Shown: in pieces, positions 21,704 to 38,059 of the stretch
Numbering within the stretch: position 1 is the stretch's first letter
How the letters are laid out: each line of letters begins with the position of its first letter
Assembly: GCA_963575745.1 (NCBI GenBank)
Contig: CAUYUJ010020566.1
Span: forward strand, 1 to 64,000
Reading direction: 5' to 3'
Length of the DNA stretch: 64,000 nt
Origin: Prorocentrum cordatum
Taxonomy: Eukaryota > Sar > Dinophyceae > Prorocentrales > Prorocentraceae
Made by a program: the position numbers and the translations under genes
Notes under the pieces: model-generated
The model's input: only the letters and a program-made list of their open reading frames with translations
The model's database searches: none
What the model was told of the DNA's origin: nothing

Positions 21704-21705
21704 TA
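21704..21705. repeat. TA target-site duplication, left
   Basis: TA immediately outside the left terminal inverted repeat, matched by TA at 38023-38024. TTA on both sides is also compatible. Confidence 0.7.
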
Positions 21706-21732
21706 ATCCAATAGCCCTTATAACGGCGACGA
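21706..21732. repeat. terminal inverted repeat, left
   Basis: 27 bp, reading ATCCAAT followed by AGCCCTTATAACGGCGACGA. The reverse complement of 37996-38022 differs at two positions, in the outer seven bases. Confidence 0.88.
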
Positions 21733-21739
21733 TGGAACA

Positions 21740-21805
21740 CAGTGCCGGGGAACTGCTTTGAACATCACCAGTCGTTCAAAGCAGTGCCCCGGCACTGCTT
21801 TGAAC
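21740..21805. repeat. subterminal palindromes, left end
   Basis: GTTCAAAGCAGTGCC is followed after CC by its reverse complement at 21774-21805. A degenerate copy precedes it at 21740-21763. The same palindrome occurs twice near the right end, so it is likely a transposase-binding or end-pairing element. Confidence 0.85.
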
Positions 21806-21844
21806 GATGCGGAAATGCGATCAGCAGGAGCCTTCGTCTGTTCC

Positions 21845-22599
21845 TTCTCCTCTTCTCGTCGCTGTATGCTCTTCCTTGTCCTCCCTCCTCCCCCGTTCCC
21901 TCTCTAATTAATTACCTCGTTCTCCCAGTCTCACGCGCACTCTTCCTCCCCCCTCTCCTCCTCCTCTTCCTGCTTCTCCTCCTCGTCCTCCTCCTCCTCC
22001 GCCTCCTCCCCCTCATTTGTTATATTTCTCCGTCCTTGTCCTCCTGTCCCCGTTCTCCTTCTCCCTCTCCTCCTCCTCCTCCTCCTCGTCGTCGTCGTCC
22101 TCCTCCTCTTCCTCCTCCTCCTCCTCCTCCTCCTCTTCCTCCTCCTCCTCCTCCTCCTCCTCCTCACCTTCTTCCTCCTCCTCCTCCTCCCCCTTTTCCT
22201 CTCCCTCCTCCTCCTCCTCCTCCTCCTCCCCCTTCCCCCTCTTCCTCCTCTGCTATCACTCCTCCATAATTCCTGTCCGCTCCTCCCCTTCACTGATCTT
22301 CCTCTTCGTCATCATCATCCCTTTCGTCGCACGCCTCTTAATCCTCAATCGGTTCCCAATCTTCTCGACTTTCTTGTCATCCGCGTCCTTGGCTGTTGGA
22401 GGGGCCTCAGGAATTCTCAGGGCTCTTGTGTTGCACGCGAAGGCACACCTCCCAGGAACGCATCATCCTCCTCACATTCACCCTCCTCCTCCTCATCCTC
22501 CTCCTCCATGCACGTTCGGCTCAAGCCCGCGCCGACGGTAGGTTTCACGGCGGTTGGGCGGGCTCGCGCCCGCCTCCGCGGCCTGCAGTCGGGGCAGAG
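21845..22599 (+). promoter_or_regulatory. left leader: polypyrimidine tract upstream of gene 1
   Basis: Extended CTC/CCT-rich DNA (21845-22260 and 22462-22507) ends in GGCTCAAG at 22517-22524, the last eight bases of the dinoflagellate spliced leader. The upstream part matches it only weakly (about 14 of 21 with a gap). Such a tract would suit a trans-splicing acceptor. The open frame upstream of 22600 lacks an ATG. Confidence 0.5.
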
Positions 22600-23766
22600 A
22601 TGCGTGCAGGGTGGGATGACAAAGCGGAAGAGGAAACACGGGCCGCAGTTGCGGATTCTTCAAAGAGCAGCGGCGGCGGTTGGGGAACAAGTGGGGGTTG
22701 GGGCGGCCGCAGTGGCGGATACGGCGGCGGAGGTGACCGCAGTGGCGGCTGGGGCGGCGGAGATTCTCTTGGCGGATGGAGAGGAAAAGCGCAGGATGGC
22801 GGCGACGGAAGTGACCGCAGTCGCGGATGGGAGGGCGGCGGATGGGGCGGCAACGGATGCGAGGGTTGGGGAATGGAGGGCGCCCGCTGGTGGGACGACG
22901 AGGGTGGCTGGTGGAATGCATGGGAAGGTGGCCGCTCGAGTGCCTCGGCAGGTTCTCCTGCCGCGGAGCCCGCGGCCGCAACAGCGGCGGGCAAAGGAGG
23001 CGGTCCCCTGCTTCCCCCAGGGCGCGAAGAACAAGGCGCAGTTGCGCTGTTTCAAATTGTGCGCAATGAGCCGCTGCCAATTTTCAAGTTGGAATTCTTC
23101 GAGAACTTCAGGGCGAACTGGAACGGCAATTATAAGCAGCACAACGCGGCCTTGAAGTGGTTCCGAGACGAGTACGAAGACCGAGAAAACCCTTTCGGCA
23201 GCCGCACGCCCGTCTTCGGAGGTACCGCAGTTGCGGAGGAAATTTCGAAGATCCTTAAGTACCGCGCAAAGGGGAAGGCGCAGGACAACAGGGATTGGGA
23301 CTGGGACCACACTGTCAAAGTGCCGTGGTCTTGGCTGGAGATGGTCGCGCAGATGGATGGACCTACAATGCTGCGCGTCGTGTGCGGCCCTGACAATGAC
23401 CGCAGTCGCGGGTTGGTCCGCTGCGAGTGCCGCCCGTGCCCTAGCAGTCTCGACAACATGAGGCACACGAAAGGGGTGGACAGAGGACAGGCGCAAAGAA
23501 TCCCTCTGCCCCAGTGGGATTTCGTCCTCATCCGCGACGACGGCTCGGGCATTCGCGTCCACCCATCCTGGTCTAGCCCGAAGTTCAACACGTATGAGGT
23601 GGAGCCGCACTCGCATCCCGTGCGGGGCCCGAGGGCAGGTCTCGGCAAGAGCGATGGCCACGGAACGTTCACGTTCTGGAAGATGCTGCACGCCCATCCG
23701 AATCCTGGGCGGTTCGACGCGAGCAAGGGGGCGCAGCTGCAACCGCGGTGGTCCGCGCAGCCTTGA
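22600..23766 (+). CDS. transposon gene 1: Gly/Trp-rich protein of unknown function
   Basis: 388 aa from the first in-frame ATG; the frame is open further upstream only through CT-rich leader. Residues about 25-115 are low-complexity Gly/Trp/Ser with repeated GGW and DRSGGW units, of the kind seen in RNA-binding or phase-separating tails. The C-terminal ~250 residues look globular, with WFRDEYEDRENPF and a CECRPCP cysteine cluster, but match no family I know. Seven motif copies of the CCGC-AGTN-GCGG class lie inside it; several encode the DRSGG/AVAD units, so the motif has shaped the protein. Its stop is followed after 2 nt by another copy. Role in transposition is unknown. Confidence 0.75.
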   Translation: MRAGWDDKAEEETRAAVADSSKSSGGGWGTSGGWGGRSGGYGGGGDRSGGWGGGDSLGGWRGKAQDGGDGSDRSRGWEGGGWGGNGCEGWGMEGARWWDDEGGWWNAWEGGRSSASAGSPAAEPAAATAAGKGGGPLLPPGREEQGAVALFQIVRNEPLPIFKLEFFENFRANWNGNYKQHNAALKWFRDEYEDRENPFGSRTPVFGGTAVAEEISKILKYRAKGKAQDNRDWDWDHTVKVPWSWLEMVAQMDGPTMLRVVCGPDNDRSRGLVRCECRPCPSSLDNMRHTKGVDRGQAQRIPLPQWDFVLIRDDGSGIRVHPSWSSPKFNTYEVEPHSHPVRGPRAGLGKSDGHGTFTFWKMLHAHPNPGRFDASKGAQLQPRWSAQP

Positions 23767-24431
23767 CACCGCAGTTGCGGGATTGCGCAGCCATGGAACC
23801 GCAGTTGCGGGGACCGATCGCGTGACGCCGCGCTCGTTTGACTCACTATGCGCGCTTTCGGCCGCAGTTGCGGCGCTGCCTTCTAGCGACTTCATACAGC
23901 TTGGCCGCAGTTGCGGCGCTCCCACGACTGACCGCTGTAATTAGGTGCTTCGGGCGCGCATCACCTCCGTTGAAGCACTCGTGACGTTAATTAGCGCGGC
24001 CGCAGTTGCGGAGACAGGTACTTAAACAGATGGATCCGCAGTTGTTCGTCGTCCTCGTCGCCCCTTCCCCGTCGTCCTCGTCGCAGTCTCCTCCCTCCGC
24101 CTTTCCTCCTCGTCGCAGTTCCTTCCGTTGGCCGTAGCCCGCCTCCGTTGGCCGAGTCATTTCCCGTCGTCCTCGTCGCAGTCCCCCCCGAGGGCCGCAG
24201 TTGCGGACTTTGTTGATTCCTCCTCCTCCGTTTCTGCCCCGTCATCCTCGTCGCAGTCCCCTTGCTCCTTTCACCCTCGTCTGAGCTCTTCGCGCCATCC
24301 TCTTCCGTCGCGTCCTCTCCATCCTCCTCTTCGCCTTCCTCGTCCTCATCCCCGCCGTCTCCCTCGTTGCCCTTCCTCTCCCAAGCCGGCCGCAGTTCCC
24401 CCGTCGGACGGGGGCCGCGCGCGGCCACGCC
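23767..24431 (+). promoter_or_regulatory. intergenic 1-2: motif cluster and polypyrimidine leader
   Basis: Six exact dyad motifs in 430 bp (23769-24206) are followed by CT/CGTC-rich sequence. CCGTAGCC at 24132-24139 equals the first eight bases of the spliced leader and TTGGCCGAG follows at 24147, but with extra bases between, so the relict is doubtful. Truncated motif halves occur at 24036 and 24391. Confidence 0.5.
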
Positions 24432-26258
24432 ATGGACCCAGGTCGCAAAGCCGAGGTCGACAAGCGGTTCGCCGAGCTGAAGCAGCAACTGCGGGAAAGG
24501 TTCGGCCTGCAAGGGGCTGCCGCGGATGCCGCAGTCGCGGAGCCGACGGAGGACCGCAGTTGCGGAAGCCCCGAGCGACCGCCGCGCGAGGCCTCCCCGC
24601 AGTCGTCTAGCTCCTCGCGGGAATATCGGCCGCCGCCGCCGATAAGCGCTGCGAGTGGGAGCTCTGCTGGTGGGAGGCGCGAAGAGGCGCAGTTGCGCAG
24701 GGCGCACTTGACCCCCAAGGCAAAATGGGGGCCTCGGGCGCAGACGCCGACGAAGCAGCAGGACCAACCAGCAGTGACGGGAGCCGCCACCGAGACCGCA
24801 GTTGCGGGGGTGGCCGGCGAGCCAGGTGCCGCGCGCGGCTCATCTGGGAGCAGCGCGCCCTCGGCCGTGCTGCTCGCAGCCGAGTCCAAACGAGGCGCCC
24901 AACCCGAAGACGAGGCCGCCTCCCAGGAGAAAGCCGCCGAGACAACCGCCTCGGCCGATTCGCGGCCGAGGAAAAGGCCGCCTCCCACGGAAGACTCGCC
25001 GCTGTCAGAACCGCAGTCGCGGGGTCGCGCGGGGCCTCCGTCGGAACCGCAGTTGCGGGAAGATGCGGGAGCACCGCGGAAGAAGCAGCGGACCAGGTCC
25101 CCTCCAGGGATAAACTACTTTGGGGAACGCCCCAAGTGGAACGAAGGATTCCTTCGTACAGCAGACGGCAATCGGGTTCCGTCCACCATCGCTTTGGTGT
25201 TCAACGTGGTGGTCATCACGAAGGTGGCAACAAAGGAAGATGTCTTCAGGTGCATCTTGCACCAAACTGCGGCGGTCGTCTTCGTCGTATGGGACCCCGA
25301 GCTGTTCCGCACGGGGAACGTCGAAGGCGCTTGCAGCTACGACGTTCGCGTTGGACTCAGGACTGCCGTCGACGACGCTGTCACTTTGAAAAACGCCTCC
25401 GTGGAGCCTTACTGGACGACGGTTGCCCTGTTCAGAGACACGGGCGTGGTGCTCGTGCGCCCGCACATCATCGCAGAGACCGCAGTTGCGGGTCATGTTG
25501 TTGGGGCCACCCACGCCGTCACGATCCTGAGCTTTCGCCTGAAGGGCTCCGAGATGAATCCTGCCGCGGTGATCCGTTTTGCCGTCGTGTCCAGACACGC
25601 AGTCACCGAACGTCTCCAACAGAAGATCACGCAAACAGAACAAACAGCGTGGCATCCAGCTTTCTTCAAGGACGCGGTTGCTTCCATCCATAAAAATGAT
25701 GTGCGGTTCTTGTGCGGCCTGTTTGACATCCCGCCTGAGCAGCTCGCAGCATTTGGCCGCAGTTGCGGAGCCAGCTACACCTGCCCGGTGGGGGTGGTGT
25801 TCAGGGCTGGACCCGCCCTGTTCGGAGGCATTGTGGAGGGCACACGCGTCATGCATCCGAATTACGTCCTCCCCATTGGCCCGTGCGACGTGCGCATTGC
25901 GGACTACAACATTGATTTTGCAGGGAGGCCGTCGAAGAACGATCCCCAGTGGCTCCCTGATTGGATGCATCGAACAAGCGACTCCATCATCTCTCGGCGC
26001 TGGGTTCCAGCGAAGTACATGCCCAAGTGGGAGGATGACCCTGACCGCAGTAGCGGAGTCAGAGAAAAGCTCGGCTTGGCAGCGCTGCCCCCAATCGGCA
26101 AGGTCATTCAGAAGGAGCTCAACGAGAAGACCTTCAGCACGCACTGGTGCGAGGGCATCCACCAAAACATCGTCTTCGTCGGCCACGGACGCGCAAGTCG
26201 GGCGAGCAAGCGGAAGCACGAAGAGGCGCGATCTGCCGCAGTTGCGGACGAGCGGTGA
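24432..26258 (+). CDS. transposon gene 2: possible divergent EEP-like protein
   Basis: 608 aa from an ATG in GCCATGG context. Residues 1-220 are Ala/Pro/Ser/Glu-rich and disordered-looking. From about residue 225, at FGERPKW, the protein is globular to the end. The order of strands is VFVVWDPELF, VVLVRPHIIAE, AVTILSFRLKG and RFLCGLFDI. This loosely recalls endonuclease/exonuclease/phosphatase folds and the better match in gene 6. The catalytic residues are not clearly present, so enzymatic activity is doubtful. Eleven motif copies lie in the frame, read as AVA, RSCG and PQLR. Unknown-function protein is the safe reading. Confidence 0.72.
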   Translation: MDPGRKAEVDKRFAELKQQLRERFGLQGAAADAAVAEPTEDRSCGSPERPPREASPQSSSSSREYRPPPPISAASGSSAGGRREEAQLRRAHLTPKAKWGPRAQTPTKQQDQPAVTGAATETAVAGVAGEPGAARGSSGSSAPSAVLLAAESKRGAQPEDEAASQEKAAETTASADSRPRKRPPPTEDSPLSEPQSRGRAGPPSEPQLREDAGAPRKKQRTRSPPGINYFGERPKWNEGFLRTADGNRVPSTIALVFNVVVITKVATKEDVFRCILHQTAAVVFVVWDPELFRTGNVEGACSYDVRVGLRTAVDDAVTLKNASVEPYWTTVALFRDTGVVLVRPHIIAETAVAGHVVGATHAVTILSFRLKGSEMNPAAVIRFAVVSRHAVTERLQQKITQTEQTAWHPAFFKDAVASIHKNDVRFLCGLFDIPPEQLAAFGRSCGASYTCPVGVVFRAGPALFGGIVEGTRVMHPNYVLPIGPCDVRIADYNIDFAGRPSKNDPQWLPDWMHRTSDSIISRRWVPAKYMPKWEDDPDRSSGVREKLGLAALPPIGKVIQKELNEKTFSTHWCEGIHQNIVFVGHGRASRASKRKHEEARSAAVADER

Positions 26259-26973
26259 GTGCGGCAAGACCGAGGAGCCGCAGTTGCGGAACAGAGCTCG
26301 GTACTACTGGGCGCCTGCTGCCTGCGTAGTGCATCCCAGTGTAGGATAGCCCGCAGTTGCGGTGTTGCGGTTGCGGTGTAGGATAGCCCGCAGTTGCGGG
26401 GTTGCGGTTGCGAAGCCGCAGTTGCGGTTGCGTATAATAGGAGAGCACGCGGTTGCGAAGCCGCAGTTTGCAATAAGTGTGCGCGCGCTGGGTCATCATC
26501 ATCGTCGTCGTCCGTCCTCGTCGTCGTCGCTGCCGTCGTCGTCGTCGCGTCTGTCGTCTGTCGTCAGCAGTCGTCGTCGGTCGTCGTCGTCGTCAAGTCT
26601 GTCGTCTGTCGTCAGCAGTCGTCGTCGTCGTCGTCCCTCCTCCCTCCTCCCTCCTCCCTCCTCCCTCCTCCCTCCTCCCTCCTCGTCCTCCTCCAGGCCG
26701 CATCCCCCCGCCACCTCCGTCCTAGCTCTCCTTCCCCTTCCCCTCCTCGTCCTCCTCCAGCTTGCACCCCCCTCCCTCCTCCAGCCTGCGCCCCCCCCAA
26801 GCTCTCGCCCGATATTTTGGATTAAAACTGAGCCTTCAGTCGTCCGCAGGCATTCGGCTCAGCAGGTCGTTGGGCTCCTGGCACACACGCCTCCACCCTG
26901 AGCGACGGACGTCGTGCCATAGTCCGCCATATCGGAGCTCCGGGCCGCAGTGGCGGACAGCGTCGGCACAGAT
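26259..26973 (+). promoter_or_regulatory. intergenic 2-3: motifs, polypyrimidine tract, SL relict
   Basis: Motifs at 26278, 26351, 26388, 26416 and 26945. CGTC/CTCC-rich sequence (26505-26810) is followed by 26844-26862, which aligns to the dinoflagellate spliced leader at 16 positions with two gaps and ends CATTCGGCTCAG. The coding ATG follows 112 nt later. Confidence 0.55.
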
Positions 26974-29400
26974 ATGAACGACAGCGTCGGCACAGATAAT
27001 GCCGCAGTGGCGGACAAGAAAGCCGCAGTGGCGGACGAGACAGCCGCAGTTCCAGGCGGAACGCAAGGGATCTTTCAGAGGGCCAACGCCTTGAGGTCTA
27101 GATTCAGGACAGGGGACAAGGTGCGCCTCCCTGTGCTCATGCTCGCCCCGCACACGGGCAACCGAGGCGGGCACTACCCTCAGCAGGAAAGGGTTCGGGA
27201 ACTCGCTGTGAAAATCTTCCTGGCTGGATTCACGCAAGCCGAAGCTGACCACGAAGGTGTCTGCGTTCAGATGTACCCAGCACAAGAGCTGGTGCTGAGA
27301 AAAAAGGAGGACCCGAAGTTCCAGACGTACACAGAGTACAATCTGGAAAAAGCGACCGGCCACCTCGCTGCGTGCTTCGACCGCAGTTGCGGAACAGACG
27401 TTGCGTATGGGACGTGTTCGCACTCCCACTTGTGCCTCGTGTTGCGGGCGTGCGCCCTGGGAGCCAAGTGGCCCATCCCCCAAGGCATGGAGTTCACGGA
27501 GGACGAGAGCGCGAGGCTGAAGCGCGTGCTCGATAAGGACGGCAATCTCGACATGGCCGCAGTGGCGGAACATGACCCTGTCGCTAAGAAACTCGTGCAG
27601 GGGGGTATGCTCATGGAAGTGCTTAGCTGGAAAATCATGGACGAGGAACCCACTGGTGCTTCGCTCATCAGCCAGTCCCTCAATAAAGGAGCCGATTTTG
27701 CGTTGCGAACGACTGAACTCACCGCGCTCCGTGTTCTGTGCAAGGCTGTTGACGCGGAGCTGCACGCCGCAGTTGCGGATCAGGTTGCCTTTGAAAAGGT
27801 CAAGCTCTCCGTCATGCACGAACTCGATCGAGTCGTTCAGGACCCAGACTTCATTGAGCTGTTCTCGTTCGTTGTTGGGCTCGGGAGCACGAAAGCGCAG
27901 TTCATCCCCTTGCTGCTCCAGTTCTGCGAGGTCTACGTGAACTCCAGGAGAAGGGCCCTTCGGCTCGGTGCCTTCGGGGCAGCCAGCGAGCTTCCCGACG
28001 AAGTGCCGTGGGTCAAGGTTGCCGTGGTGATGCGATGCTACAGGAACGCGCCTGCGAGGAAGAGGGGCGTTGACACTCCTGTGTGGTGCCCTGACCCAGA
28101 ACAATCGTGGAAGAAGAAGGAGTTCCGAGACTTCCTCATCGACATGAACTCGGCTCTCCGTTTGTACTTGTTCACGCTGAGCAAGGCCATCGACGGCATG
28201 GGCCCTGAGAAGGCGATCGAGTTCAAGGCGAACCTGTGCATACTGACCGCAGACGGCTTCATGCAGTACCTGAAGGACACCCACGTCAAGGAACGAAGTA
28301 TCCCAGGACATCGTCAGGCGCTCCTCCGCGCTTGCGCGGAGGCCACGGGGAAGGTGGAGCCGAAGTCCAATCGGGACGCCCTTGAGAAGGCCCTCGGCGA
28401 AGTGGGAGTCCGAGGCGGGAAGCCCGATTGGTTCGATTTCAACGCGTTGCCGCGCCCAGAACCGAATGAGCCCGCAGTGGCGGGGAAGACAAAGGCTTCC
28501 GCAGAGGAGCACGAGTTGATGCCGACGGTCATTTCCTTTGACCCCACGACGCAATTACCAACGAACCACCAGCGCAGCAGGGACACGACGGCCATTCCAC
28601 GCGGATCCTTCCCTTTGCCAATCGCCGAATGGAGGCGTTCAGCGGCAGCGAAGGAGCTGGGGCGGGAGCCTGCTTTGGTCAGCGCAGTGTTGCTGTGCCT
28701 TTGGGCGCGCCACATGTCCGCAGTTGCGGAAGCGCAAGTAGAGGTGTTGCAAGACGCTGACACAGAGAAACGCACCGTCAAGGCAACCGCTGCAAACGAC
28801 GAAAAATGCATCGAGTTGTGGCCGTGCGTCCCAAAGGCATCCAAGGTGCACGCCGCAAGCACGCACCCCGAGAGGGTGGCCGTGCAAGTCTGGGTGAAAG
28901 GAGATCCAAATGGGGCCACGCCCACGACCTTCTACTTGCACCCCGAGTTCAAGCCGCCTGCGGACAAGACGCCCGCCGACGTGGCTGACCACGATGTGCG
29001 GTTGAGAGCATGGAAGTGGGATGCGCAAGAGACAATGCACGTCTTCTGGGCAGTCAACAGAGTCACGGAACAGGAGATCCAGCAGAGAAACAGCCGTAAT
29101 GAAAGCGCAGTTGCGCGCATCAACATGGAGCTGGAGACGAAAGAATTGGCGGTGTGCGTGCCTGGGACAGGCGGGGTCGTGCTCGCCGTGAATGTCCCTG
29201 TGCTGGTGAATACCACGGCCGTGAAGAAAGGAGAAGAGCTCCTGTGGGAGGCGAGACCCAAAACCGCACCGAAGAAGAAGGCGGCCGAGGAGACGTGGAA
29301 GACGGACGCGGCCAAGAGGGCCAAAGGGAAGCCTTCGGGCCAGCCCGCGCCGAAGAAATCGAAGAAAGGGTTCGACGAAAGCGGGAAGATGTCGCTCTAA
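26974..29400 (+). CDS. transposon gene 3: 808-aa protein of unknown function
   Basis: The first ATG is at 26974; the open frame extends 24 nt upstream only via GTG. The N terminus (1-30) carries repeated AAVAD units encoded by the dyad motif. Residues about 35-520 look globular, mixed alpha/beta then mostly helical, with no signal peptide or membrane span. A cluster CFDRSCG...CSHSHLC near residue 136 contains several Cys and His and could bind metal, but part of it is motif-encoded. The last ~50 residues are Lys/Ala-rich, suggesting nuclear or nucleic-acid interaction. No family recognised. Its stop is followed 8 nt later by a motif copy. Confidence 0.75.
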   Translation: MNDSVGTDNAAVADKKAAVADETAAVPGGTQGIFQRANALRSRFRTGDKVRLPVLMLAPHTGNRGGHYPQQERVRELAVKIFLAGFTQAEADHEGVCVQMYPAQELVLRKKEDPKFQTYTEYNLEKATGHLAACFDRSCGTDVAYGTCSHSHLCLVLRACALGAKWPIPQGMEFTEDESARLKRVLDKDGNLDMAAVAEHDPVAKKLVQGGMLMEVLSWKIMDEEPTGASLISQSLNKGADFALRTTELTALRVLCKAVDAELHAAVADQVAFEKVKLSVMHELDRVVQDPDFIELFSFVVGLGSTKAQFIPLLLQFCEVYVNSRRRALRLGAFGAASELPDEVPWVKVAVVMRCYRNAPARKRGVDTPVWCPDPEQSWKKKEFRDFLIDMNSALRLYLFTLSKAIDGMGPEKAIEFKANLCILTADGFMQYLKDTHVKERSIPGHRQALLRACAEATGKVEPKSNRDALEKALGEVGVRGGKPDWFDFNALPRPEPNEPAVAGKTKASAEEHELMPTVISFDPTTQLPTNHQRSRDTTAIPRGSFPLPIAEWRRSAAAKELGREPALVSAVLLCLWARHMSAVAEAQVEVLQDADTEKRTVKATAANDEKCIELWPCVPKASKVHAASTHPERVAVQVWVKGDPNGATPTTFYLHPEFKPPADKTPADVADHDVRLRAWKWDAQETMHVFWAVNRVTEQEIQQRNSRNESAVARINMELETKELAVCVPGTGGVVLAVNVPVLVNTTAVKKGEELLWEARPKTAPKKKAAEETWKTDAAKRAKGKPSGQPAPKKSKKGFDESGKMSL

Positions 29401-30003
29401 TTAAGAAGCCGCAGTGGCGGCAGTCAGGGCGGCTTGCTCGCGTGACCGCAGTTGCGGGCAACAGGCCGAAGGGGGGGGCGCACGCGTGACCGCTGTTGCG
29501 GAGCGCTCGTGTAGTTTGCAGTGTCACTGCTTCTGTTAGCTGATGCCGCAGTAGCGGACCGCTGACGATCGAGCACGGAGGTTCGAAACGGACCTCCTCC
29601 CTCCCTTCTCCCTCTCCTCCCTCGCCCTTCCTCCACTTCCTCCCTCTCTCCTCCTCCTTTCTCCCCTTCCTCCCAAGTTGGAAGCCGAAACTACTCATTT
29701 CCTCACTCCCTCCCTCCCTCCCTGGAGGCCCTGGAGGGCGTCCGCCCTGGAGGGCCTGGAGGGCCCTGGAGGCCCTGGAGGGCCTCCCTGGAGGCCCTGG
29801 AGGGCCTCCCTGGAGGCCCTGGAGGGCCTGGAGGGCCCTGGGCTGAGGGCGGAGGCCCTCCAGGGAGGCGCGAGGATCGCAGGGACCGAGGGAGGCCCTC
29901 CAGGGAGGCGTTCAGCTCGCCATCTGGCTCAACCGCGCGCGGCCCCACTGCCCGCACCCCCGCCTTGCCCGCAGTTGCGGCTGTGTCCAGCGCAGTAGCA
30001 CAC
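29401..30003 (+). promoter_or_regulatory. intergenic 3-4: motifs, palindromic GGAGGGCC repeat, SL relict
   Basis: Motifs at 29409, 29446, 29490, 29546 and 29969. Pyrimidine-rich 29590-29720 is followed by tandem CCTGGAGGGCC units (29720-29910). At 29912-29932 comes GCCATCTGGCTCAA, matching GCCATTTTGGCTCAA of the spliced leader with one gap and one mismatch. The ATG of gene 4 lies 71 nt on. Confidence 0.55.
29720..29910. repeat. CCTGGAGGGCC tandem palindromic repeat
   Basis: About fifteen overlapping GGCCCTGGAGG/CCTCCCTGGAGG units, largely self-complementary, confined to this intergenic gap. Confidence 0.85.
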
Positions 30004-31002
30004 ATGCCGACTTCGAGCGAATGGAGCCCTGTGTGCGTTGAGAAGGTCTTGTGCATCCGTGGAGGTTGGCTTGCGCAGACCACCCCCATCCCCGAAAAGG
30101 ATGTCAAGGTGCTCCACGCATGGCCCCTCGGAGAGATAACTTTCGTGCACGTGAACATGCAAAAGGCTTGGCTGCTCAAGGTGTGCGCCAAAGGTAAACC
30201 GACCGCAGGGGCCTTGAAGGCCTCCAAGGCCTGGGACGCGCTGAAGAAAGAAGTCGCGAAGCAGGGCGGCGCCGCAGTTGCGGACGATGAGAGCGACGGC
30301 GACGCGGGGGACGAAGCAGATGACCCCATGTCGGCCCTGGTCAGCCCCACGGACGCCACGAAGAAGCAGGCAGCGACCCCGACCAGCGCCAAGAAGCAGA
30401 AGACTGGAACGCGTGCGGCGACTACTGGCCTGCCCAGGGGCGAGGCCGTGGAGTCGGCCATAGCCACTGTGCACTCTGTACAGATGCCCGCAAAGAGCCC
30501 CATGAAGTTTCCGCACGACACGGCCGTTCGAAACGTGCGGGTGGCCAGCTTCAAGCGGAGGACGTTGTGGCTGGACGCTGCAGACCTTGGGTGGCTGATC
30601 GACATGATCGTGGACGACGTGAGCCTCGGCGGTGTCCCCGACATCGGCGACGGCGACAAGGACGAGGCCGCAGTGGCGGACAGGGACTGGGCAACGGCGG
30701 TTGACCCTGCCACCCCGCTGGCGAAGCAAAAGGAGGTCGACCCCCCCGTGGCGCAGGGGAGCGGCTCTGGCTTCACCGTCGTTTGGGACTTCAAGGGCGC
30801 TTGGGTCGCGACCATCACGCGAGAGTGTGCCAACAAGGGCAAAAGGATCGAGATGGATGTGAAGAAACTTACAAAGAAGAAGTGGCAGTCGGCGCAGTCG
30901 GTGAAGGGCTACGACTACGAGTGGGAGGGCATGACGCAGCACCAGCGCAAGCAAGCGGCTCTGGATTACCTCGAGCTCCAAATCCCCAGTCTGTTCGACT
31001 GA
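30004..31002 (+). CDS. transposon gene 4: 332-aa protein of unknown function
   Basis: From the first ATG at 30004 to TGA at 31000. A small N-terminal globular part (1-90) is followed by an acidic Asp/Glu stretch (about 95-120) and a Lys/Thr/Ala linker with a KKQK basic cluster that could be a nuclear signal. A second globular part (about 155-332) includes VVWDFKGAWVATITREC and ends in helices. Two motif copies lie in frame, encoding AAVAD. No family is recognised. The acidic/basic layout would suit a DNA or chromatin accessory protein, but that is a guess. Confidence 0.72.
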   Translation: MPTSSEWSPVCVEKVLCIRGGWLAQTTPIPEKDVKVLHAWPLGEITFVHVNMQKAWLLKVCAKGKPTAGALKASKAWDALKKEVAKQGGAAVADDESDGDAGDEADDPMSALVSPTDATKKQAATPTSAKKQKTGTRAATTGLPRGEAVESAIATVHSVQMPAKSPMKFPHDTAVRNVRVASFKRRTLWLDAADLGWLIDMIVDDVSLGGVPDIGDGDKDEAAVADRDWATAVDPATPLAKQKEVDPPVAQGSGSGFTVVWDFKGAWVATITRECANKGKRIEMDVKKLTKKKWQSAQSVKGYDYEWEGMTQHQRKQAALDYLELQIPSLFD

Positions 31003-31377
31003 GGCCCGAAGCCGTATGGGCCGCAGTTGCGGTGGGGCTACTGAGTGCCCGCAGTTGCGGGGTGGCTGGGTGCGCGTGAACACGCGGAGGGCGAGGCGGT
31101 GTGAGGAGGCAGGCGGAAGGTTTAGGGTGTTCCACGGGTGCACGCCTTAGTGCGCCAACTTGTGTGGGCGAGCGTTTTTCTTAGAGAAGCATGGAGTGAA
31201 GCATCGAAACCCTGTGCGCGCGATGATTGGGGCTTCCGCGCGGGCGTTGTTGAAATGTACCTCCTTCTTCGCCCCTCCGCATCGTCTTCAGTTGCTCCTC
31301 CCTCCTCCCCTCCCTCTTCCTAGTTCTGTAGCCCGCAGCCGAGTGCCCGGCCCGAGTCGTTCGCCACGCGACCGCTC
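31003..31377 (+). promoter_or_regulatory. intergenic 4-5: two motifs and polypyrimidine leader
   Basis: Dyad motifs at 31021 and 31049 lie 18 and 46 nt after the stop. Pyrimidine-rich 31262-31323 ends in TCTGTAGCC (31325-31333), which matches eight of the first nine bases of the spliced leader but diverges after that. Confidence 0.45.
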
Positions 31378-34300
31378 ATGGATGTTCCCGTGGGGCGGAC
31401 ATGGTATGGCGAGGAGGACGGAACGCATTTCGAGGTGGAGTGGCTCCATTACGACAGCGGCTGCGCACCGAGGAAAACGAAGTATGGCACCACTGGGCTC
31501 GCCAACATCTTGGGCCGCAGTAGCGGCGTTCCGTGCCCCAAGAAGATAAAGGTGCACGCATGTGCGGATTTTCCGTGCCTAGCGAAGTGGCCCGCGTCGC
31601 AGTACGGCCTTGTTGAGCCGCCTCGCTTTCATTTGCGGCCGTCTGCTTGGCGACCGGGCGCGACGCCACCCCCCGCAGTTGCGGCTCCAGGCGGCACCGC
31701 AGTTGCGGCTCCCTCGGCCCCTGCACACATAGCACCAGCAACACCAGCAGAACTCGCAGCTCCTGCGCAAGAAGGACACGCAGCTCCAGCACCAGAAGCA
31801 CCCGCAGAACCCAAACCTCCAGCAGCCCCTGTGCCCGAAGCACCCGCAGCAGCAGTCCCTCCAGCTCCTCCAGCTCAAGTGCACGCAACACCAGACCCGC
31901 CTGCTGCGCAGGAGACCGCAATTGCGGTTGAAGCTCCTGAGGGAGTGGAAGCGGACAAAGACACACCACTTCCAGCACGCTTGCCACCAGCGCGGCCGCT
32001 GCCAGAGAACTGGTCGAAGACGCAGGTCGCATTCTTCCCGTGCCCAGACCCAAAGGCTGCAGCACGAGTTGCGGCGCCTGTTGGCGACGCCTTGCGGCCA
32101 CGAGTCGCGGCGCCACCCCTGGCGCCAGAGAAAGGTGTACCTGTGGAAGACGCGCCAAAGATCCAGGCCGCAGTGGCGGCGACGGTGCCTGACGTCGTGA
32201 TGGCTCTCCTGAGGCAGATTCTGTCCGAGAATTCCTACATAGGGTATTCAGCTTTCATGCTGTTTGCCTTGCGGTTCGGGCGTCGACCTTACGTGTGGGA
32301 AGGCGAGAACCGCAAGGACCTCCTTGACTTCTACATGCCTTGGGCAAAGGAGAAGTGCACTGAGCCATGCGCCGTCGACGGCGTGGCGTGCGTACTCGCC
32401 GCTGCTGAGGATCTGTTCGGGGAATGGACAACGGTGGAACTCAGGCCCGTGACTCCCGAGAACCCTCTCCATGAGGTGCGCCACTGGGTGGCCGCAGTTG
32501 CGGTGGGTGGCGTGTGCTCTGAGGGGGCGGACGCGTTGAACAGGTTCTACGGTCCTCTGGGACAATGGGTCCTAGGGACTGTTTGCGATGGAAACTGCGG
32601 CATTGACCTTATGGCGATGATGTTGCAGAAACCGCAAAATGCCGAGACGCGCAAATGGCTTCGGGAGGAACTGTACGATTTCGGGGTGCGCCGCTGGGAC
32701 GAACCGCGGTTGCACGACATGCTCGTTGTCACGCAGGAACTAACCTTGGAGGAGGTGCGGGCGTACCGCAGTTGCGGGGCCAGCGGCCCTGCTGGACCCA
32801 TGGTCCTGCACGACTCCGAGGGCGAGGGCGAACCAGCAGAGGCGCCGAGAGAGGCGAGCGCGCCACGCCCCGCTCTCATGGCGGCGTTAGAGTGGCAGAC
32901 GGGCGTGCAGGACATGGGTATATTGCTTGCCATGGCTGAGGCTATGCCCGAGGCGTTGCAGGAGGAGCAGATCAGGGCGCACGCACTGGCCAGCGCACGC
33001 CCAAAACCCGAAGTTGCGGAACAGAAGCGGCGCGTGTGCCCGCACATGCTCAGAGACCGCGAACTGGTTTGCAAAGAACTGGAGGCGCACGCACGCAGTT
33101 GTGGTTGGATGGGCGAGGGCGTTCTGCCACGGAATTCAATCGCGTCTTTTTGCGGGCGGTTCACGTGGCCGAAGGGCATGGGGGTCGTCCAGCAGCGCCA
33201 GGCCGTCTCCAAGTGGTTTCAAAACTGGCGCACACAAGGTGGACATGGCACGGCGGGCGTGCATGGCCGACGCCGCGCGCGGGGCAACCAAGGGCGCCCG
33301 AACAAGGCTCCATGGCTGGAAGCCGCTCTGTACGAGTGGTGGTCCCACATGAGGTACTCCGTGGACTGGAAGGCGGTGGCCAAGCGAACCGCAGTTGCGG
33401 AGGAGAGGCCCAAGATGTTGGCCAGGTTCTCCCAATCCCTGCTGGTTACGAAGGCGAAGCAACTCGTCGCGGACTACTGCGTGGAGACAATGAAGCGGGG
33501 AGGCAAACCGATGGTGCCGCAGTTGCGGCCTCGGTGGTGGGTGAAGTGGCGGCGCTCCTACGGCCTGAGCATGAAGAAGCCGAACCGCAAGTACAAGGTG
33601 CCAAAATGGTTGCTCCAATCTCGTTTTGAGACTATGATCTTGAACGTGGCCAGGGTCCGCGCAGCTGCAGAGGAGCTTCTGGGGTACGACCCGCACATCC
33701 TGAACTGGGACCAGTCGCCCTTTCACCACAACGAGTCGTCGTCGGCCTCGAAGCCGACCTTGGCTGTGAAGGGTGGCATTGTCCCGCTTGTCGAGGCGCA
33801 TGACGACAGCAGGGCTCGGTGGACAGCGAACCTGACGGTGTCGAGCGACGCGGAGGACATCCGCAGTTGCGGACCACCGCCGGCGGAGCTAATGTTCAAG
33901 GGGGGATCTGTCATCGCTGAGGGCTTGGCCGCACATGCCCGCAGTCGCGGCTATCCGTCTTGGGTGAGCACGGCGACGTCCGAGAAGGGGTCCTACCGCG
34001 CAGACGACGTTGTATCATTCTTGCAGCGGCACTTGCGGGCCTGGCCCGACGACCCGCAGTTGCGGGGAAAGTGGCGCATCCTCATGGCCGACGACCATTC
34101 CCCGCACAAAGCAGACGCTGTGCGGAGACTCGCCTGGCAGCGCGGCTACGTGCTGATCATTCACGGCGGGGGGGCGACCGCAGTTGCGCAGCCCGTGGAC
34201 ACGGACTTGAACCAGCACGTGAAGCGCCGGTACATTGCCCTCGAGACCAAAGCGCTGGTGCAGCAAATGGCGTTGGGGAAGCACGTGCCGCAGTTGCGGC

Positions 34301-35493
34301 GTTCCGATTGCGCCGACTTGATGCTGTCAGTGTTGGAGAATGTGCAGTTGCACTTGGACGCCGCGAAAGGTTTCCTGAAAGTGGGAATTCGAGCGCCCTT
34401 CGACAAGTCAGGAGATCTCGAGATTTGCCGAGAGGCGGCGGAACTCTGGGAAGCAGGGGGGCTGCGAGCAAAAGTGGACACCGCAGTCGCGGAGGTGAGG
34501 GAAGAATGCGAGCAGAAACGTTTGAAATGGTCCTACAATGACGTGCTGCGTCTCATACACGAATACGAGAAACACGACGCCACAGATTCCGTGTTGGAGA
34601 AGCTCGGCGACGAAGCGCTAGGCCAGGAGCCAGGCCACGAGGAGGGCGATGAGGAGGGCGGGGAGGAGGAGGAGGAGGAGGTGCACGAGGAGCACGAGGA
34701 GGACGAAGAGCAAGAGGAGGCCTCGTGGGCCGAGGCTCTTGCGGAACAGTGCGATGCCGCAGTTGCGGCACCTGGGCCTCAAGGATCCTCGGTATCCATG
34801 GACTGCGTGGTCGACGCAGAGGCGGCCGAGCAGGTGGCAGTGGCGACGTCCTTGGCAGAAACGCTCCGCGAGGCGGAAGATATGCTGCGCCAAGTGGGCA
34901 TGGAGAAACTAGCGCAGGATTGCCGACAGCAACGACACAAACAAAAGAAGCGGTTGAGAGAGCTGGCGCGGGAGGACAACGAGGTCCTACGAGCGTTGAC
35001 TGCCCAGCGAGACCACGAAGCCGCAGTGGTGGCGAAAAAGCGGCGCCTGGCTCTGGAAGCGAACGACAGGACGAAGGCGTTGCACGATCTCAAGAAGCAG
35101 ATTCGAGAGGCCGAGGCCGCCTTGAGGGCAAAGAAGGAGGCCGCAGTTGCGGTGGAAACGGCTTTGGCTAACAAACACGCCCTAGCGCAGTGGAATCCCG
35201 AGGAGTTCAAGATCAAGAAAAACAGGATGGCAGCTCTGGATCGCCTGGCTCGCGGAAAAGGCGTCCTCTCAGACGAGCAGAGGGGGGAGTGGGCATGGTT
35301 CAAGACGCATTGGGACGAGGAGATGTGCAAGCAGCACAAGGAGCAATGGCCGCTCACGTTTGCTGGGTGGCTGCAAAAAGTCGCGAACGACGCGGCGTCT
35401 GGGAACCGTTCGGCGCTGTCGCAGTTCGTGCATTCGGAAACAGTGAGAACCCTGGGAGGGCAAATGGCGCTGGTAATCCCAGCCCTAGCGTGA
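31378..35493 (+). CDS. transposon gene 5: DD35D transposase with OTU-like region
   Basis: 1,371 aa from ATG. Residues ~90-250 are Pro/Ala-rich. Residues ~275-440 include VCDGNCGIDLMAMML, reminiscent of the DGNC nucleophile segment of OTU cysteine proteases; no partner His was identified. Residues ~585-730 are basic and helical, probably DNA-binding. The catalytic core follows: NWDQSPF (D778), LMADDHSPH (D905) and AQPVDTDLNQ (D941). The last two are separated by 35 residues, as in the DDE_1 (pogo/Tigger-type) superfamily. A coiled-coil, Glu/Lys-rich tail (~1085-1290) could oligomerise. It would cut and join the element's ends at TA sites. Motif copies are read as AVA, RSCG and PQLR within this one gene. 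Confidence 0.82.
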   Translation: MDVPVGRTWYGEEDGTHFEVEWLHYDSGCAPRKTKYGTTGLANILGRSSGVPCPKKIKVHACADFPCLAKWPASQYGLVEPPRFHLRPSAWRPGATPPPAVAAPGGTAVAAPSAPAHIAPATPAELAAPAQEGHAAPAPEAPAEPKPPAAPVPEAPAAAVPPAPPAQVHATPDPPAAQETAIAVEAPEGVEADKDTPLPARLPPARPLPENWSKTQVAFFPCPDPKAAARVAAPVGDALRPRVAAPPLAPEKGVPVEDAPKIQAAVAATVPDVVMALLRQILSENSYIGYSAFMLFALRFGRRPYVWEGENRKDLLDFYMPWAKEKCTEPCAVDGVACVLAAAEDLFGEWTTVELRPVTPENPLHEVRHWVAAVAVGGVCSEGADALNRFYGPLGQWVLGTVCDGNCGIDLMAMMLQKPQNAETRKWLREELYDFGVRRWDEPRLHDMLVVTQELTLEEVRAYRSCGASGPAGPMVLHDSEGEGEPAEAPREASAPRPALMAALEWQTGVQDMGILLAMAEAMPEALQEEQIRAHALASARPKPEVAEQKRRVCPHMLRDRELVCKELEAHARSCGWMGEGVLPRNSIASFCGRFTWPKGMGVVQQRQAVSKWFQNWRTQGGHGTAGVHGRRRARGNQGRPNKAPWLEAALYEWWSHMRYSVDWKAVAKRTAVAEERPKMLARFSQSLLVTKAKQLVADYCVETMKRGGKPMVPQLRPRWWVKWRRSYGLSMKKPNRKYKVPKWLLQSRFETMILNVARVRAAAEELLGYDPHILNWDQSPFHHNESSSASKPTLAVKGGIVPLVEAHDDSRARWTANLTVSSDAEDIRSCGPPPAELMFKGGSVIAEGLAAHARSRGYPSWVSTATSEKGSYRADDVVSFLQRHLRAWPDDPQLRGKWRILMADDHSPHKADAVRRLAWQRGYVLIIHGGGATAVAQPVDTDLNQHVKRRYIALETKALVQQMALGKHVPQLRRSDCADLMLSVLENVQLHLDAAKGFLKVGIRAPFDKSGDLEICREAAELWEAGGLRAKVDTAVAEVREECEQKRLKWSYNDVLRLIHEYEKHDATDSVLEKLGDEALGQEPGHEEGDEEGGEEEEEEVHEEHEEDEEQEEASWAEALAEQCDAAVAAPGPQGSSVSMDCVVDAEAAEQVAVATSLAETLREAEDMLRQVGMEKLAQDCRQQRHKQKKRLRELAREDNEVLRALTAQRDHEAAVVAKKRRLALEANDRTKALHDLKKQIREAEAALRAKKEAAVAVETALANKHALAQWNPEEFKIKKNRMAALDRLARGKGVLSDEQRGEWAWFKTHWDEEMCKQHKEQWPLTFAGWLQKVANDAASGNRSALSQFVHSETVRTLGGQMALVIPALA

Positions 35494-35820
35494 TGCAGGC
35501 CGCAGTTGCGGACCCACAGGAAGTCCAGAGGGAAGTTGTTTTTCCAAGCGGCTCCCGCGCGGGCAGGAGATGAGGCAAAACCGCAGTTGCGGTCTTCCTG
35601 CTGCTGTGAAAATAATCCTTTCACAGTCCCTTGCAATCGTCGCCCTCCTTCTGCTTCTCCGCCAGTCCATTTGTTGTTCTTTCGGTTCCTTTGAGTCCTC
35701 GCCCTCCTTCTGCCACTCCTCGAATCCTCTTTGTCTCCTCCCTCCATCCGACCCCATGCCCATTCACGATCCATTTCCGTAGCCACCGTGGCTCGAGGTG
35801 GCGCACGCGAAGACGCAAGC
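35494..35820 (+). promoter_or_regulatory. intergenic 5-6: motifs, polypyrimidine tract, SL relict
   Basis: Motifs at 35500 (6 nt after the stop) and 35581. CT-rich 35636-35750 is followed by 35777-35797, which matches the 21-nt spliced leader at 17 positions without gaps: CCGTAGCCA, then TGGCTC and AG. The ATG is 24 nt beyond. Confidence 0.65.
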
Positions 35821-38010
35821 ATGTGGCCGCCCGCGCGCCCGAGCGCATCCTCAGGGAGTATGGACCGTGGACCTCGATTCGCCAGAACGGTGTTCATCCA
35901 CAACGCTGAGGAGGAGGAGGGAGGCAAAGACGAGGAAGCCGCAGTTGCGGATGATGACGACGACCAGCGGACGCAAGATGGCGACAGCACCGTCGCGTCC
36001 TCGGCTGCCTCCGCTGACGAGGCTGAGTCCCGGGGAGGTGCGGGAGCCGCAGTTGCGGCAGCACATGACTCCTACATGCCGAGAGTGTTGTCGTCGCGGA
36101 GACCCTGGAAACGGGTGCCCATCATCGAGACAAGCAATCTGTCGGAAAAACAAAGAGCTCTTGTCGACGCATGGGAGGAGAAAACGGAGTTCGAAGCGGG
36201 ACGGGTCGGCTTCTACGTGGCCAACTTCGGAGGGACTGCAGCTAGACCCACGCAACGCGCGGACGAGTGGGCGCAGCTCCGCGCGAACCCTGCCCAGATC
36301 ATCGCCCTCTGCGAGTGCGACGACGAGACCTGCGCGGTACTCAGTGGGGAGCACGACGCGAGGGACAGTGCAGCCGCAGTTGCGGACGATAGGTTTCGGA
36401 GTCGGACTCAATACAACTACCTGTGCGTTAAGGGCGGCGAGCCATCAGGGACCCTCCTTGTTGGCATGAGGGACCGCAGTGGCGGCCACATTGAACACGT
36501 AGACTTTGCGAGACTCTTCCACAAGCAGGAGAAGTCCAAAACGAAGAAGAAGAAGAAACAGTCCGCAGTTGCGGAGGCTCCTGCGCCAAAGCTGCACAAC
36601 AAGTACTCCAGGGCGATGGTGGTGCGCGTCCACCTGGACCAGGCCGTGACCCATTTGGGGGGCTCCTTCAACGTCATGGCGGTGCACGTCCACCACAGCT
36701 TGGCCAACCAAGACTGGGGCGTCACGAAGCTCCATGAGTTCTACAACTGGTTCGTCGCCTACGTCAGGGAATGGGACGTGAAGGTCTGCATGGGGGACTT
36801 CAACATGTGCATGTTCCAGCTTGTGTCCTGGTGCCGCAATTGCGGCCTGACTGTGGACGTCGCCGCGTGGACCCCCTGGAAGACAGCAGGCGGCCAGCCC
36901 AGGGCAGACAGCATGGCGATTTTGTTCATAAACTGTCCTGGGCAGTACAAGCTTCACCATGGCCTGAGTGTTCTGCACGACCGTGAGGGCGGATTCTTGA
37001 CGACCCAGCATGATCCGTCTTTCCCTGTCTTCGACTACACGAATGGCCCTGGGAAGATGCTTCAGACTTACGTGCCCAAGGCTGAGCCCGTTGAAAACAA
37101 GATGCGCGCCTTCCTGACGCCATCTGGCGAATCCTTGACCGCAGTTGCGGAGTTCGAGCAAAGGATGGCGCGCAGGGAACGCGACGATTGGGTGCGCCAT
37201 CCCTTCAGAGTGAAGCAGGGCAACCTCGACGACAAGATATGGCATGGCGCCTTCGGCAGGGCGAGGCACGGAGCGCACTTCCCTCTGGTGGCTTTCACGC
37301 ACAATACGTGCCGCAGGTCACCTGAAAGACTCGCCGCGAGGTTGGAACGCAGGAAGGGCGGCAGGAAGGGCGGCAAGAAGGGCGGCAAGAAGGGCAGCTA
37401 CGCGGACACCGCAGTTGCGGGGAAGGGCGTCCGACCCCAGATGGGAACCGCAGTTGCGGGGAGAGACGCTGGGGCTGAGCGAGCTGGGAACACGCCACCG
37501 CCGCAAGCTGCCAACGGCGACGATGCGACCCCTTCTTGTGCCGCAGTGGCGGCTGGGTCCTGGGACGCCAGCGGCAGCGGCGCATGGGAGGCGCGCAGTC
37601 CCGCCACGAGATGGCAGGGCTGGTCCTGGTGGGACTGGAGCTCGAGCGAATGGGGCGCTGATGGCGCGCAGTGGTGGCCCTCTGATCATGCCGCAGTTGC
37701 GGACAATGCCCCTGAGGGCTCGCCTCCTCAGCGTGAAGTCGAGTGGGGCTCGAGCGGGCGACCTGCCGAGCGCCCTCCGTGGAGCTTCGAGGGCAGCGTT
37801 GGTGATGGCCGCAGTTGCGGGCAAGTGGAGCATGATGTTGATTGCCGCAGTTGCGGACAGTGTACGCTGGAAAAATCATCATCATCATCAATCATAATCA
37901 TCATCATATCATCATATCATACGTTCAAAGCAGTGCCGGGGCACTGCTTTGAACGCGTTCAAAGCAGTGCCGGGGCACTGCTTTCGATCGTCGCCTCGTC
38001 GCCGTTATAA
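35821..38010 (+). CDS. transposon gene 6: endonuclease/exonuclease/phosphatase-like protein
   Basis: 729 aa from the first ATG. Residues ~20-85 are acidic and Ala/Ser-rich. The EEP-like core spans ~115-510. VGFYVANFGG is followed by ALCECDD (the usual catalytic Glu region), a Lys-rich loop, MAVHVHH, VCMGDFNM (the family's GDxN motif) and RARHGAHFPLVAF in place of SDHxPL. If active it would be a metal-dependent nuclease, perhaps processing ends or RNA. Residues ~515-545 repeat KGGKK, and the tail to ~670 is Trp/Gly/Ser-rich like gene 1. The last residues are read from the subterminal palindromes, and the stop codon (38008-38010) lies inside the right terminal repeat. Confidence 0.78.
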   Translation: MWPPARPSASSGSMDRGPRFARTVFIHNAEEEEGGKDEEAAVADDDDDQRTQDGDSTVASSAASADEAESRGGAGAAVAAAHDSYMPRVLSSRRPWKRVPIIETSNLSEKQRALVDAWEEKTEFEAGRVGFYVANFGGTAARPTQRADEWAQLRANPAQIIALCECDDETCAVLSGEHDARDSAAAVADDRFRSRTQYNYLCVKGGEPSGTLLVGMRDRSGGHIEHVDFARLFHKQEKSKTKKKKKQSAVAEAPAPKLHNKYSRAMVVRVHLDQAVTHLGGSFNVMAVHVHHSLANQDWGVTKLHEFYNWFVAYVREWDVKVCMGDFNMCMFQLVSWCRNCGLTVDVAAWTPWKTAGGQPRADSMAILFINCPGQYKLHHGLSVLHDREGGFLTTQHDPSFPVFDYTNGPGKMLQTYVPKAEPVENKMRAFLTPSGESLTAVAEFEQRMARRERDDWVRHPFRVKQGNLDDKIWHGAFGRARHGAHFPLVAFTHNTCRRSPERLAARLERRKGGRKGGKKGGKKGSYADTAVAGKGVRPQMGTAVAGRDAGAERAGNTPPPQAANGDDATPSCAAVAAGSWDASGSGAWEARSPATRWQGWSWWDWSSSEWGADGAQWWPSDHAAVADNAPEGSPPQREVEWGSSGRPAERPPWSFEGSVGDGRSCGQVEHDVDCRSCGQCTLEKSSSSSIIIIIISSYHTFKAVPGHCFERVQSSAGALLSIVASSPL
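37923..37984. repeat. subterminal palindromes, right end (two copies)
   Basis: GTTCAAAGCAGTGCC, GG, then the reverse complement, at 37923-37954. It is followed by a second, slightly shortened copy at 37957-37984. Both match the left-end palindrome at 21774-21805. Confidence 0.9.
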
Positions 38011-38022
38011 GGGCTTTCGGAT
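37996..38022. repeat. terminal inverted repeat, right
   Basis: TCGTCGCCGTTATAAGGGCT followed by TTCGGAT, the reverse complement of 21706-21732 with two mismatches. It includes the stop codon of gene 6. Confidence 0.88.
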
Positions 38023-38024
38023 TA
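38023..38024. repeat. TA target-site duplication, right
   Basis: TA directly outside the right terminal repeat. The next bases, CTCATACTCAGACC, continue the tandem repeat seen left of the element. Confidence 0.7.
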
Positions 38025-38059
38025 CTCATACTCAGACCTGCTCGTGCTCAGACCTTTTC

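Follow-up and report, generated by a model that had tools for sequence, protein, structure and literature searches.

A 64,000-nucleotide (nt) stretch of contig CAUYUJ010020566.1 of the dinoflagellate Prorocentrum cordatum (assembly GCA_963575745.1, positions 1 to 64,000; hereafter the window) contains a large DNA transposon threaded with copies of a 12-nt dyad, CCGCAGTNGCGG. We consider it somewhat better than an even proposition that this 12-mer is a sense-strand RNA hairpin, which the transposon family keeps at numerous points along its transcripts and most densely just after stop codons. The hairpin would have a 4-base-pair (bp) GC stem and an AGUN tetraloop; in a second class of elements the stem would be 5 bp long. 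A preliminary description of this DNA, which reported the dyad, did not raise this possibility; the covariation and G-U evidence presented below points to it.

Distribution of the dyad in the element

Pattern counts located the exact 12-mer CCGCAGTTGCGG 49 times in the window, always on the + strand and between positions 22643 and 37856, compared with 0.03 copies expected from dinucleotide shuffles. With base 8 left free, CCGCAGTNGCGG forms an array of 70 copies over the same span (22643..37856), 70 of 70 on the + strand, which is the gene strand, and none on the - strand. Base 8 is T in 49 copies, G in 12, C in 6, and A in 3. The pattern is absent from both strands of the 47,683 nt of the window outside the element and, inside it, from 21706-22642 and 37857-38022; its absence from the rest of the window speaks against a motif used across the host. 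A 7.1-kb open reading frame (ORF) resembling a long interspersed nuclear element (LINE) elsewhere in the window has 0 copies, where the density in the element's ORFs would predict 28. The earlier claims of 49 exact copies within 15.2 kb, of none elsewhere in the window, and of a free base 8 with T>G>C>A were all reproduced, and the over-representation of the 12-mer in one transposon is confirmed and stronger than had been claimed. The GC content of the window, 60-62%, agrees with the genome mean of 59.7% given for P. cordatum in PMC10666404.

The stem without its loop, CCGCN4GCGG, occurs 77 times in the window, with 75 occurrences within 22301-38000 and two elsewhere; the loop of these 75 is AGTN in 70 and AATT in two. 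When perfect dyads with four pairs and a 4-nt loop were counted, the AGT-N loop was present in 74 of 170 within 22301-38000 versus 6 of 233 in 44,410 nt of the rest. One-mismatch versions are rare, and position 8 is the sole free position. The outer stem pair is C-G in 70 copies, G-C in three, and C-C in one. In the three G-C copies, found by the dyad/mismatch search on the + strand at 23036..23047, 24687..24698, and 29105..29116 (all GCGCAGTTGCGC), both sides have thus been altered jointly. The figure of about 80 copies in the preliminary description stands if these three and a few one-mismatch copies are added to the 77. Flanking bases show weak preferences, with a purine directly 5' of 59 of the 70 copies. 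No match to Rfam 15 was obtained in the window at the gathering score.

The element carries six long ORFs, all on the + strand, and 18 motif copies lie between them. Inside the ORFs as listed, the motif is read in all three frames, as AVA (32 copies), RS[CGRS]G (15 copies), and PQ[LS]R (5 copies), in agreement with the AVA, RSCG, and PQLR readings first described. Synonymous-codon shuffles yielded 0.13-0.21 motifs per ORF, whereas 3-15 were observed; codon use, which the preliminary description had itself named as a possible source, therefore fails to account for the count. Its view of the dyad as a nucleotide-level element rather than a protein repeat is borne out by the three frames, the copies between ORFs, and these shuffles.

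Position counts placed a hairpin close behind every stop codon on the + strand. The first copy follows the stop of ORF1 by 2 nt (23769..23780), that of ORF2 by 19 nt (26278..26289), that of ORF3 by 8 nt (29409..29420), that of ORF4 by 18 nt (31021..31032), and that of ORF5 by 6 nt (35500..35511). For ORF6 the stop position was taken from the alignment of its relatives, and a hairpin lies 3 nt after it (37809..37820). The first 50 nt past the six stops hold 10 copies in 300 nt (33/kb), compared with 3.9/kb in the ORFs, and beyond 200 nt past the stops there are three copies in 1,549 nt (1.9/kb). For the first 200 nt past stops versus the ORFs, the counts were 17 copies in 1,200 nt and 50 copies in 12,766 nt (p 4e-5). 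Within 300 nt upstream, ORF1, ORF4, and ORF5 have no motif, ORF2 and ORF3 have one apiece, and ORF6 has two, namely the pair that follows the stop of ORF5.

Pairing of the flanking bases in related elements

Homologs were drawn from a public set of genome and metagenome proteins. The search returned 112 homologs of ORF5, the transposase-like protein of the element, three of ORF6, and 15 matches for ORF3, two of which are host gene models that share a short piece only. Relatives of ORF3, ORF5, and ORF6 seem to be present on one contig of 11,273 nt. In the 115 proteins related to ORF5 and ORF6, peptides of the three sense frames numbered 644, 119, and 53, as opposed to 87, 5, and 0 for the reversed peptides (816 vs 92), and three of the 115 lacked any sense peptide. 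Antisense-type peptides in the same proteins numbered 23, 9, and 30, versus 15, 0, and 3 reversed; PQLR, a product of the sense motif too, is counted among the 30. The peptide counts include P0001, and the 115- and 128-protein counts P0113; where they align, both match proteins of the window at 100% identity. In 128 proteins, a count that also includes P0116 and omits the host gene models P0129 and P0130, the residue before AVA was S, P, T, or A at 740 of 903 occurrences, and the residue after it was V, A, D, E, or G at 801; G followed RSC in 53 of 59 cases. The neighbors of AVA agree with the codon frame NCC-GCA-GTN-GCG-GNN.

Alignments inspected by eye showed motif residues opposite other residues, with no gaps (TAVAE/TPDRE, IRSCG/LRENG, and PQLR/PFLT), and the motif thus arises in place by substitution rather than by insertion. 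By the same inspection, most motif positions are common to the nearest relatives (66-81% identical), whereas most differ in more distant ones. One homolog, P0005, carries RNCG three times, PQLR once, and AIA twice instead of RSCG/AVA, which suggests that the hairpin loop of its lineage may be AATT instead of AGTN. The window has two copies of the AATT-loop version, CCGCAATTGCGG, at 31916 and 36834.

Given this codon frame, the residue before AVA reports base -1 and the residue after it reports base +12. We read A, T, P, and S as G, A, C, and U at base -1, and E/D, G, A, and V as A, G, C, and U at base +12. Across the 112 ORF5 homologs there was an excess of Watson-Crick combinations at -1/+12 (z 4.8, one site per alignment column), compared with z of -0.3 to 1.05 in four control contexts. 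The excess resolves into two kinds of elements: class II pairs these bases and would have a 5-bp stem, whereas class I avoids pairing them and would retain a 4-bp stem. Alternate sites served to classify the proteins and the remaining sites to test them; this covered the 76 of 112 with at least four AVA sites (23 class II, 36 class I, and 17 neither). Held-out sites were paired at 44 of 68 positions in class II (20.3 expected) and at 8 of 125 in class I (23.7 expected). The split-half correlation was 0.80, compared with 0.25 when the +12 bases were shuffled within proteins (sd 0.12, maximum 0.63) and with -0.15 to 0.19 in the control contexts. Counted as distinct column-pairs, 36 of 60 were paired in class II (16.8 expected) and 6 of 69 in class I (15.0 expected; p 0.003). 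At some aligned columns, column 1082 among them, most class I proteins leave the site unpaired, whereas most class II proteins pair it. A first 2x2 test on the outer pair was dropped, as a mixture of motif and background AVA yields the same association.

On a tree of 72 labeled proteins there were 6 class changes, versus 23.1 for shuffled labels, and three well-supported sister pairs differ in class. These labels required at least three sites, counted wobbles as pairs, and omitted intermediates, and they were placed on one FastTree run. The window's own ORF5 is labeled class II once wobbles count as pairs.

Wobble pairs indicate which strand folds. For this comparison the classes were defined by Watson-Crick pairs alone, and the frequencies cover 559 of 621 sites under the same four-site rule, with one protein able to add sites to several classes. 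Class II to class I frequency ratios were 50 for C-G (class I count 0), 26 for G-C, 6.3 for U-A, and 3.7 for A-U. G-U and U-G were also commoner in class II, by 3.9 and 3.8 times, and all ten mismatches had ratios of 0-0.63. In a model of the non-Watson-Crick cells that allowed for base composition per class and compared class II with the rest, G-U gave p 5e-5 (distinct column-pairs), whereas A-C, the wobble of the antisense strand, gave p 0.79. The G-U signal is relative to mismatches and to other classes, and within class II other mismatches fall to 0.42 of expectation. No amino-acid property that we can see would favor the residue combinations S-E/D, S-G, A-A, A-V, P-G, and T-V on the two sides of AVA. 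Since G-U tracks the pairs and A-C does not, the folded form lies on the sense strand, and that strand is most simply taken to be RNA.

Proposed mechanism and competing explanations

The folded sense strand would be mRNA rather than single-stranded DNA of sense polarity. A putative trans-acting protein, encoded by the element or by the host, may recognize the stem sequence, the stem length, and the AGU loop, and its binding could decide the fate of element mRNAs through shielding from decay near stops, export, or assembly of ribonucleoproteins. Such a hairpin-binding protein would agree with the invariant stem and loop, the restriction to one strand, the peak behind stops, and the uniformity of sites in each element, and location right after stops would suit protection of messages from decay. 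The 4-bp and 5-bp classes might then be two binding specificities that co-evolved with their sites. We give even chances to the fuller statement that a DNA-transposon family tags its mRNAs with one hairpin in tens of copies, that a dedicated protein reads it, that at least two forms differing by one stem base pair exist, that the sites within an element share a form and are switched jointly between related lineages, and that an RNA recognition code, visible in amino-acid alignments, shapes the protein sequences. Proteins of the relatives show traces of the same hairpin at different positions, which suggests an RNA tagging code that is so far undescribed. No transposon whose genes are threaded with an RNA-hairpin code turned up in the open-access literature searched, which is not proof of absence. 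Dinoflagellates regulate genes largely after transcription; if the reading is right, the hairpins would offer a handle on mRNA fate in these organisms and on the way in which a DNA transposon labels its RNA, and would provide a case of a protein co-evolving with some 70 RNA sites.

Several observations weigh against an RNA hairpin with these properties. Within class II, G-U is at its marginal expectation (16 vs 15.4), and in the intermediate class it falls under expectation (5 vs 11.5). RNA folding with 60 nt on either side gave a mean stem probability of 0.36 for the sense strand, 0.47 for the antisense strand, and 0.38 for shuffled sense flanks, with a stem probability of at least 0.5 at only 24 of 70 sites; selection on the flanks for RNA folding was accordingly rejected, there being no sign of it around the 70 window copies. 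Of those copies, 18 of 70 have a Watson-Crick fifth pair, where the margins predict about 13, and 4 of 70 have G-T, and G-A/A-G flanks are in excess (32 vs 21.7 expected, p 0.0008), so that the window's own copies match neither class cleanly. The four core pairs are nearly invariant, and covariation is therefore unable to test the core stem, save for the three double changes. Related proteins are not independent, which counting distinct columns corrects in part, and the bases of the homologs were deduced from amino acids, not read from DNA. The contrast between sense and reversed peptides is weaker in the ORF3 homologs P0117-P0128 (42, 1, and 6 vs 20, 0, and 0, summed).

Among the alternatives, we regard as unlikely a double-stranded DNA motif read by a protein, whether a mark like HIP1, Chi, KOPS, or an uptake sequence, or internal transposase sites, with polarity given by the asymmetric AGTN core. 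Invariant arms around an asymmetric core and a stem sequence that hardly varies would suit a DNA site, as would flanks that show no selection for RNA folding. On the other hand, the terminal repeats lack the motif and the leaders are poor in it, and at -1/+12 all four Watson-Crick pairs are usable, joined by G-U and not A-C, a pattern that reading a duplex base by base would not predict. The strand symmetry of a HIP1-like palindrome is also missing, with 70 copies on one strand and none on the other. HIP1 (GCGATCGC) is described as a palindrome that is over-represented in cyanobacteria and associated with DNA methylation (PMC4390886). It resembles the present motif as a short palindromic sequence in massive excess, but the account in that paper has HIP1 spread over bacterial genomes, whereas the dinoflagellate motif keeps to one strand and one element of the window and has paired flanks with G-U. 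The analogy with HIP1 drawn in the preliminary description is thus unsupported, the motif being strictly one-stranded and absent from the rest of the window. What stands of that interpretation is a nucleotide-level element confined to one transposon of the window and tolerated in all frames; its analogies find no support.

Quite unlikely, in our estimate, is a hairpin in single-stranded DNA of the sense strand, formed in a replication or transposition intermediate rather than in RNA. G and T also wobble in DNA, and the covariation, which shows a folded strand of sense polarity, would accordingly be explained as well. Against this, the element is of Tc1/mariner type (TA duplication, DDE), and such elements move by cut-and-paste with no known single-stranded stage; furthermore, the post-stop gradient and the scarcity in leaders track gene anatomy. 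A target site for a small guide RNA that pairs with sense transcripts is very improbable. It would account for the strand specificity, the sharpness of the motif, and the single free position, but it explains neither the dyad nor the joint changes on both sides of the outer pair, nor the paired flanks.

Even less credible is a mobile 12-nt insertion spreading through the element in the manner of rickettsial palindromic elements, which are insertions, or of introners. Twelve nucleotides preserve frame, T at base 8 keeps all frames open, and the copies are nearly identical; however, the alignments inspected by eye are ungapped at motif residues and target duplications are missing. A flanking 2-nt repeat occurs at 0 of 70 sites (5.4 expected), on which insertion with target duplication was rejected, and a 4-nt repeat at 1 of 70 (0.6 expected). 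The likeness to rickettsial elements in the preliminary description is unsupported on the same two grounds. A protein-level feature (Ala-Val-Ala linkers combined with GC-rich codon use) can practically be dismissed: AVA is the commonest reading at 32 of 52 in ORFs, but all three frames are used, 18 copies lie between ORFs, synonymous shuffles give almost none, and homologs are also enriched in the peptides of the RSCG and PQLR frames.

If the hairpin acts in RNA, it may be compared with several known systems. Dispersed packaging-signal hairpins of RNA viruses act in virus assembly and likewise consist of numerous small hairpins that share a loop and are scattered over coding RNA, but no capsid gene was recognized in the window. 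CAR-E elements are repeated in coding sequence. They are described as export elements of naturally intronless mRNAs and reported to recruit export complexes, although the experiments are disputed (PMC6199362); signals in intronless transcripts are the point of likeness, and an export role for the motif would be an analogy, whereas the account in that paper mentions no hairpin or covariation for CAR-E. The yeast RNase III Rnt1p reads NGNN/AGNN tetraloops and needs the first five base pairs for cleavage (PMC4334505). A tetraloop starting with A-G, a free last base, and a short stem recall its substrates as described there, the AGTN loop of the 70 counted copies being part of the pattern definition. 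Unlike those hairpins, most window copies have four pairs, although class II homologs often have the fifth; the motif stem is nearly invariant, the third loop base is fixed as U, and copies lie inside ORFs, where Rnt1p-like cleavage would destroy the message. As far as we have seen, none of HIP1, rickettsial elements, Rnt1p hairpins, and CAR-E combines these features.

Two scans for motif pairs in bacterial and viral contigs found 42 and at least 118 stretches. In the 13 dense loci examined among these at least 160, spacings were all multiples of three in 12 and base 8 was uniform in 11, as in coding repeats; the dense locus L058 has other spacings. No relatives of the transposase were found in viral contigs.

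The element, its genes, and its surroundings

The element that bounds the motif occupies 21706..38022 on the + strand (16,317 nt). It is delimited by terminal inverted repeats, by a TA target-site duplication (21704..21705 on the left and 38023..38024 on the right, from comparison of the ends), and by flanks that rejoin as one 16-nt minisatellite unit when the element is removed. The ends are inverted repeats starting ATCC...AGCCCTTATAACGGCGACGA. Blastn between the left end and the minus strand of the right end gave matches of 34 nt at 100%, 29 nt at 100%, and 29 nt at 93% identity. The left terminal region (21706..21806, + strand) contains a perfect 34-nt palindrome at 21773-21806, and the right one (37922..38022, - strand) contains one full copy of it and a second, slightly shorter match. 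This palindrome, CGTTCAAAGCAGTGCCCCGGCACTGCTTTGAACG, repeated in the terminal repeats at 21773-21806 and 37922-37984, is a probable transposase site. GCAGTG is common to it and to some copies of the dispersed motif.

Family searches found no protein family for ORF1 to ORF4. ORF1 (22396..23766, + strand) encodes 456 amino acids (aa) from a TTG, with an ATG at 22508 and a Gly/Arg-rich N-terminal part, and has 6 motifs. ORF2 (24432..26258, +) encodes 608 aa and has 9 motifs, ORF3 (26950..29400, +) encodes 816 aa with homologs P0116-P0128 and has 7, and ORF4 (29965..31002, +) encodes 345 aa and has 3. A piece of ORF3 (28186-28278) is identical in two P. cordatum gene models, named casein kinase I and thioredoxin-domain, in which it has a common start but differs by a few residues in where it ends; the shared piece likely reflects exon calls made from transposon copies.

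ORF5 (31378..35493, +; 1371 aa, 15 motifs) appears by sequence and homolog alignment to be a DDE transposase-like protein with the pogo-type DD35D spacing (D778/D905/D941). The columns matching these three residues are invariant in the 26 sequences of homolog alignment A1. Pfam searches with these 26 members gave DDE_1 (E 0.063, under its cut-off) and DDE_3 (E 0.074) in one member each, and a check for helix-turn-helix domains gave HTH_psq in one of 26 (E 0.0011). The window ORF5 alone had no family-profile match at 0.01, and the A1 profile had six matches to PDB sequences (best E 0.15), none a transposase. The TA target-site duplication and the terminal inverted repeats agree with IS630/Tc1/mariner (pogo-like) elements, and on sequence grounds the element is of Tc1/mariner type. 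It resembles the pogo family in its TA duplication, terminal inverted repeats, and a DD35D spacing reported for some pogo groups, and differs from that family as described in its 16.3-kb length, six ORFs, sub-threshold Pfam match, and hairpin array (PMC7325037).

ORF6 (35731..38010, +; 759 aa and 12 motifs in the window frame) resembles a GDFN-type endonuclease by eye and matched no family and no solved structure. Its homologs stop at the place matching the TGA at 37803-37805, and the window ORF6 extends past the relatives' stop (37790-38010), its last part reading through what would be their 3' untranslated region. ORF2 was rejected as a paralog of ORF6, with a 39-aa stretch resembling the GDFN region at an hhalign probability of only 10.5%.

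The insertion target of the element is a 16-nt minisatellite, TTACTCATACTCAGAC, at about 21531-21703 and 38023-38075. Beyond the element ends, a 35-36-nt tandem satellite with a GCTGGCAGTTTTA core lies in the same orientation on both sides (about 21071-21450 and 39121-40440). Satellites were rejected as a source of the motif, as neither the 35-nt GCTGGCAGTTTT arrays nor the 16-nt minisatellite outside the element holds a copy. The LINE-like ORF lies at 55552-62661 and encodes 2369 aa, with an endonuclease match just under the Pfam cut-off and a reverse-transcriptase-like sequence recognized by eye. Near the start of the window, a direct duplication of at least 1,384 nt (1917-3300 and 3443-4825) is 99.6% identical.

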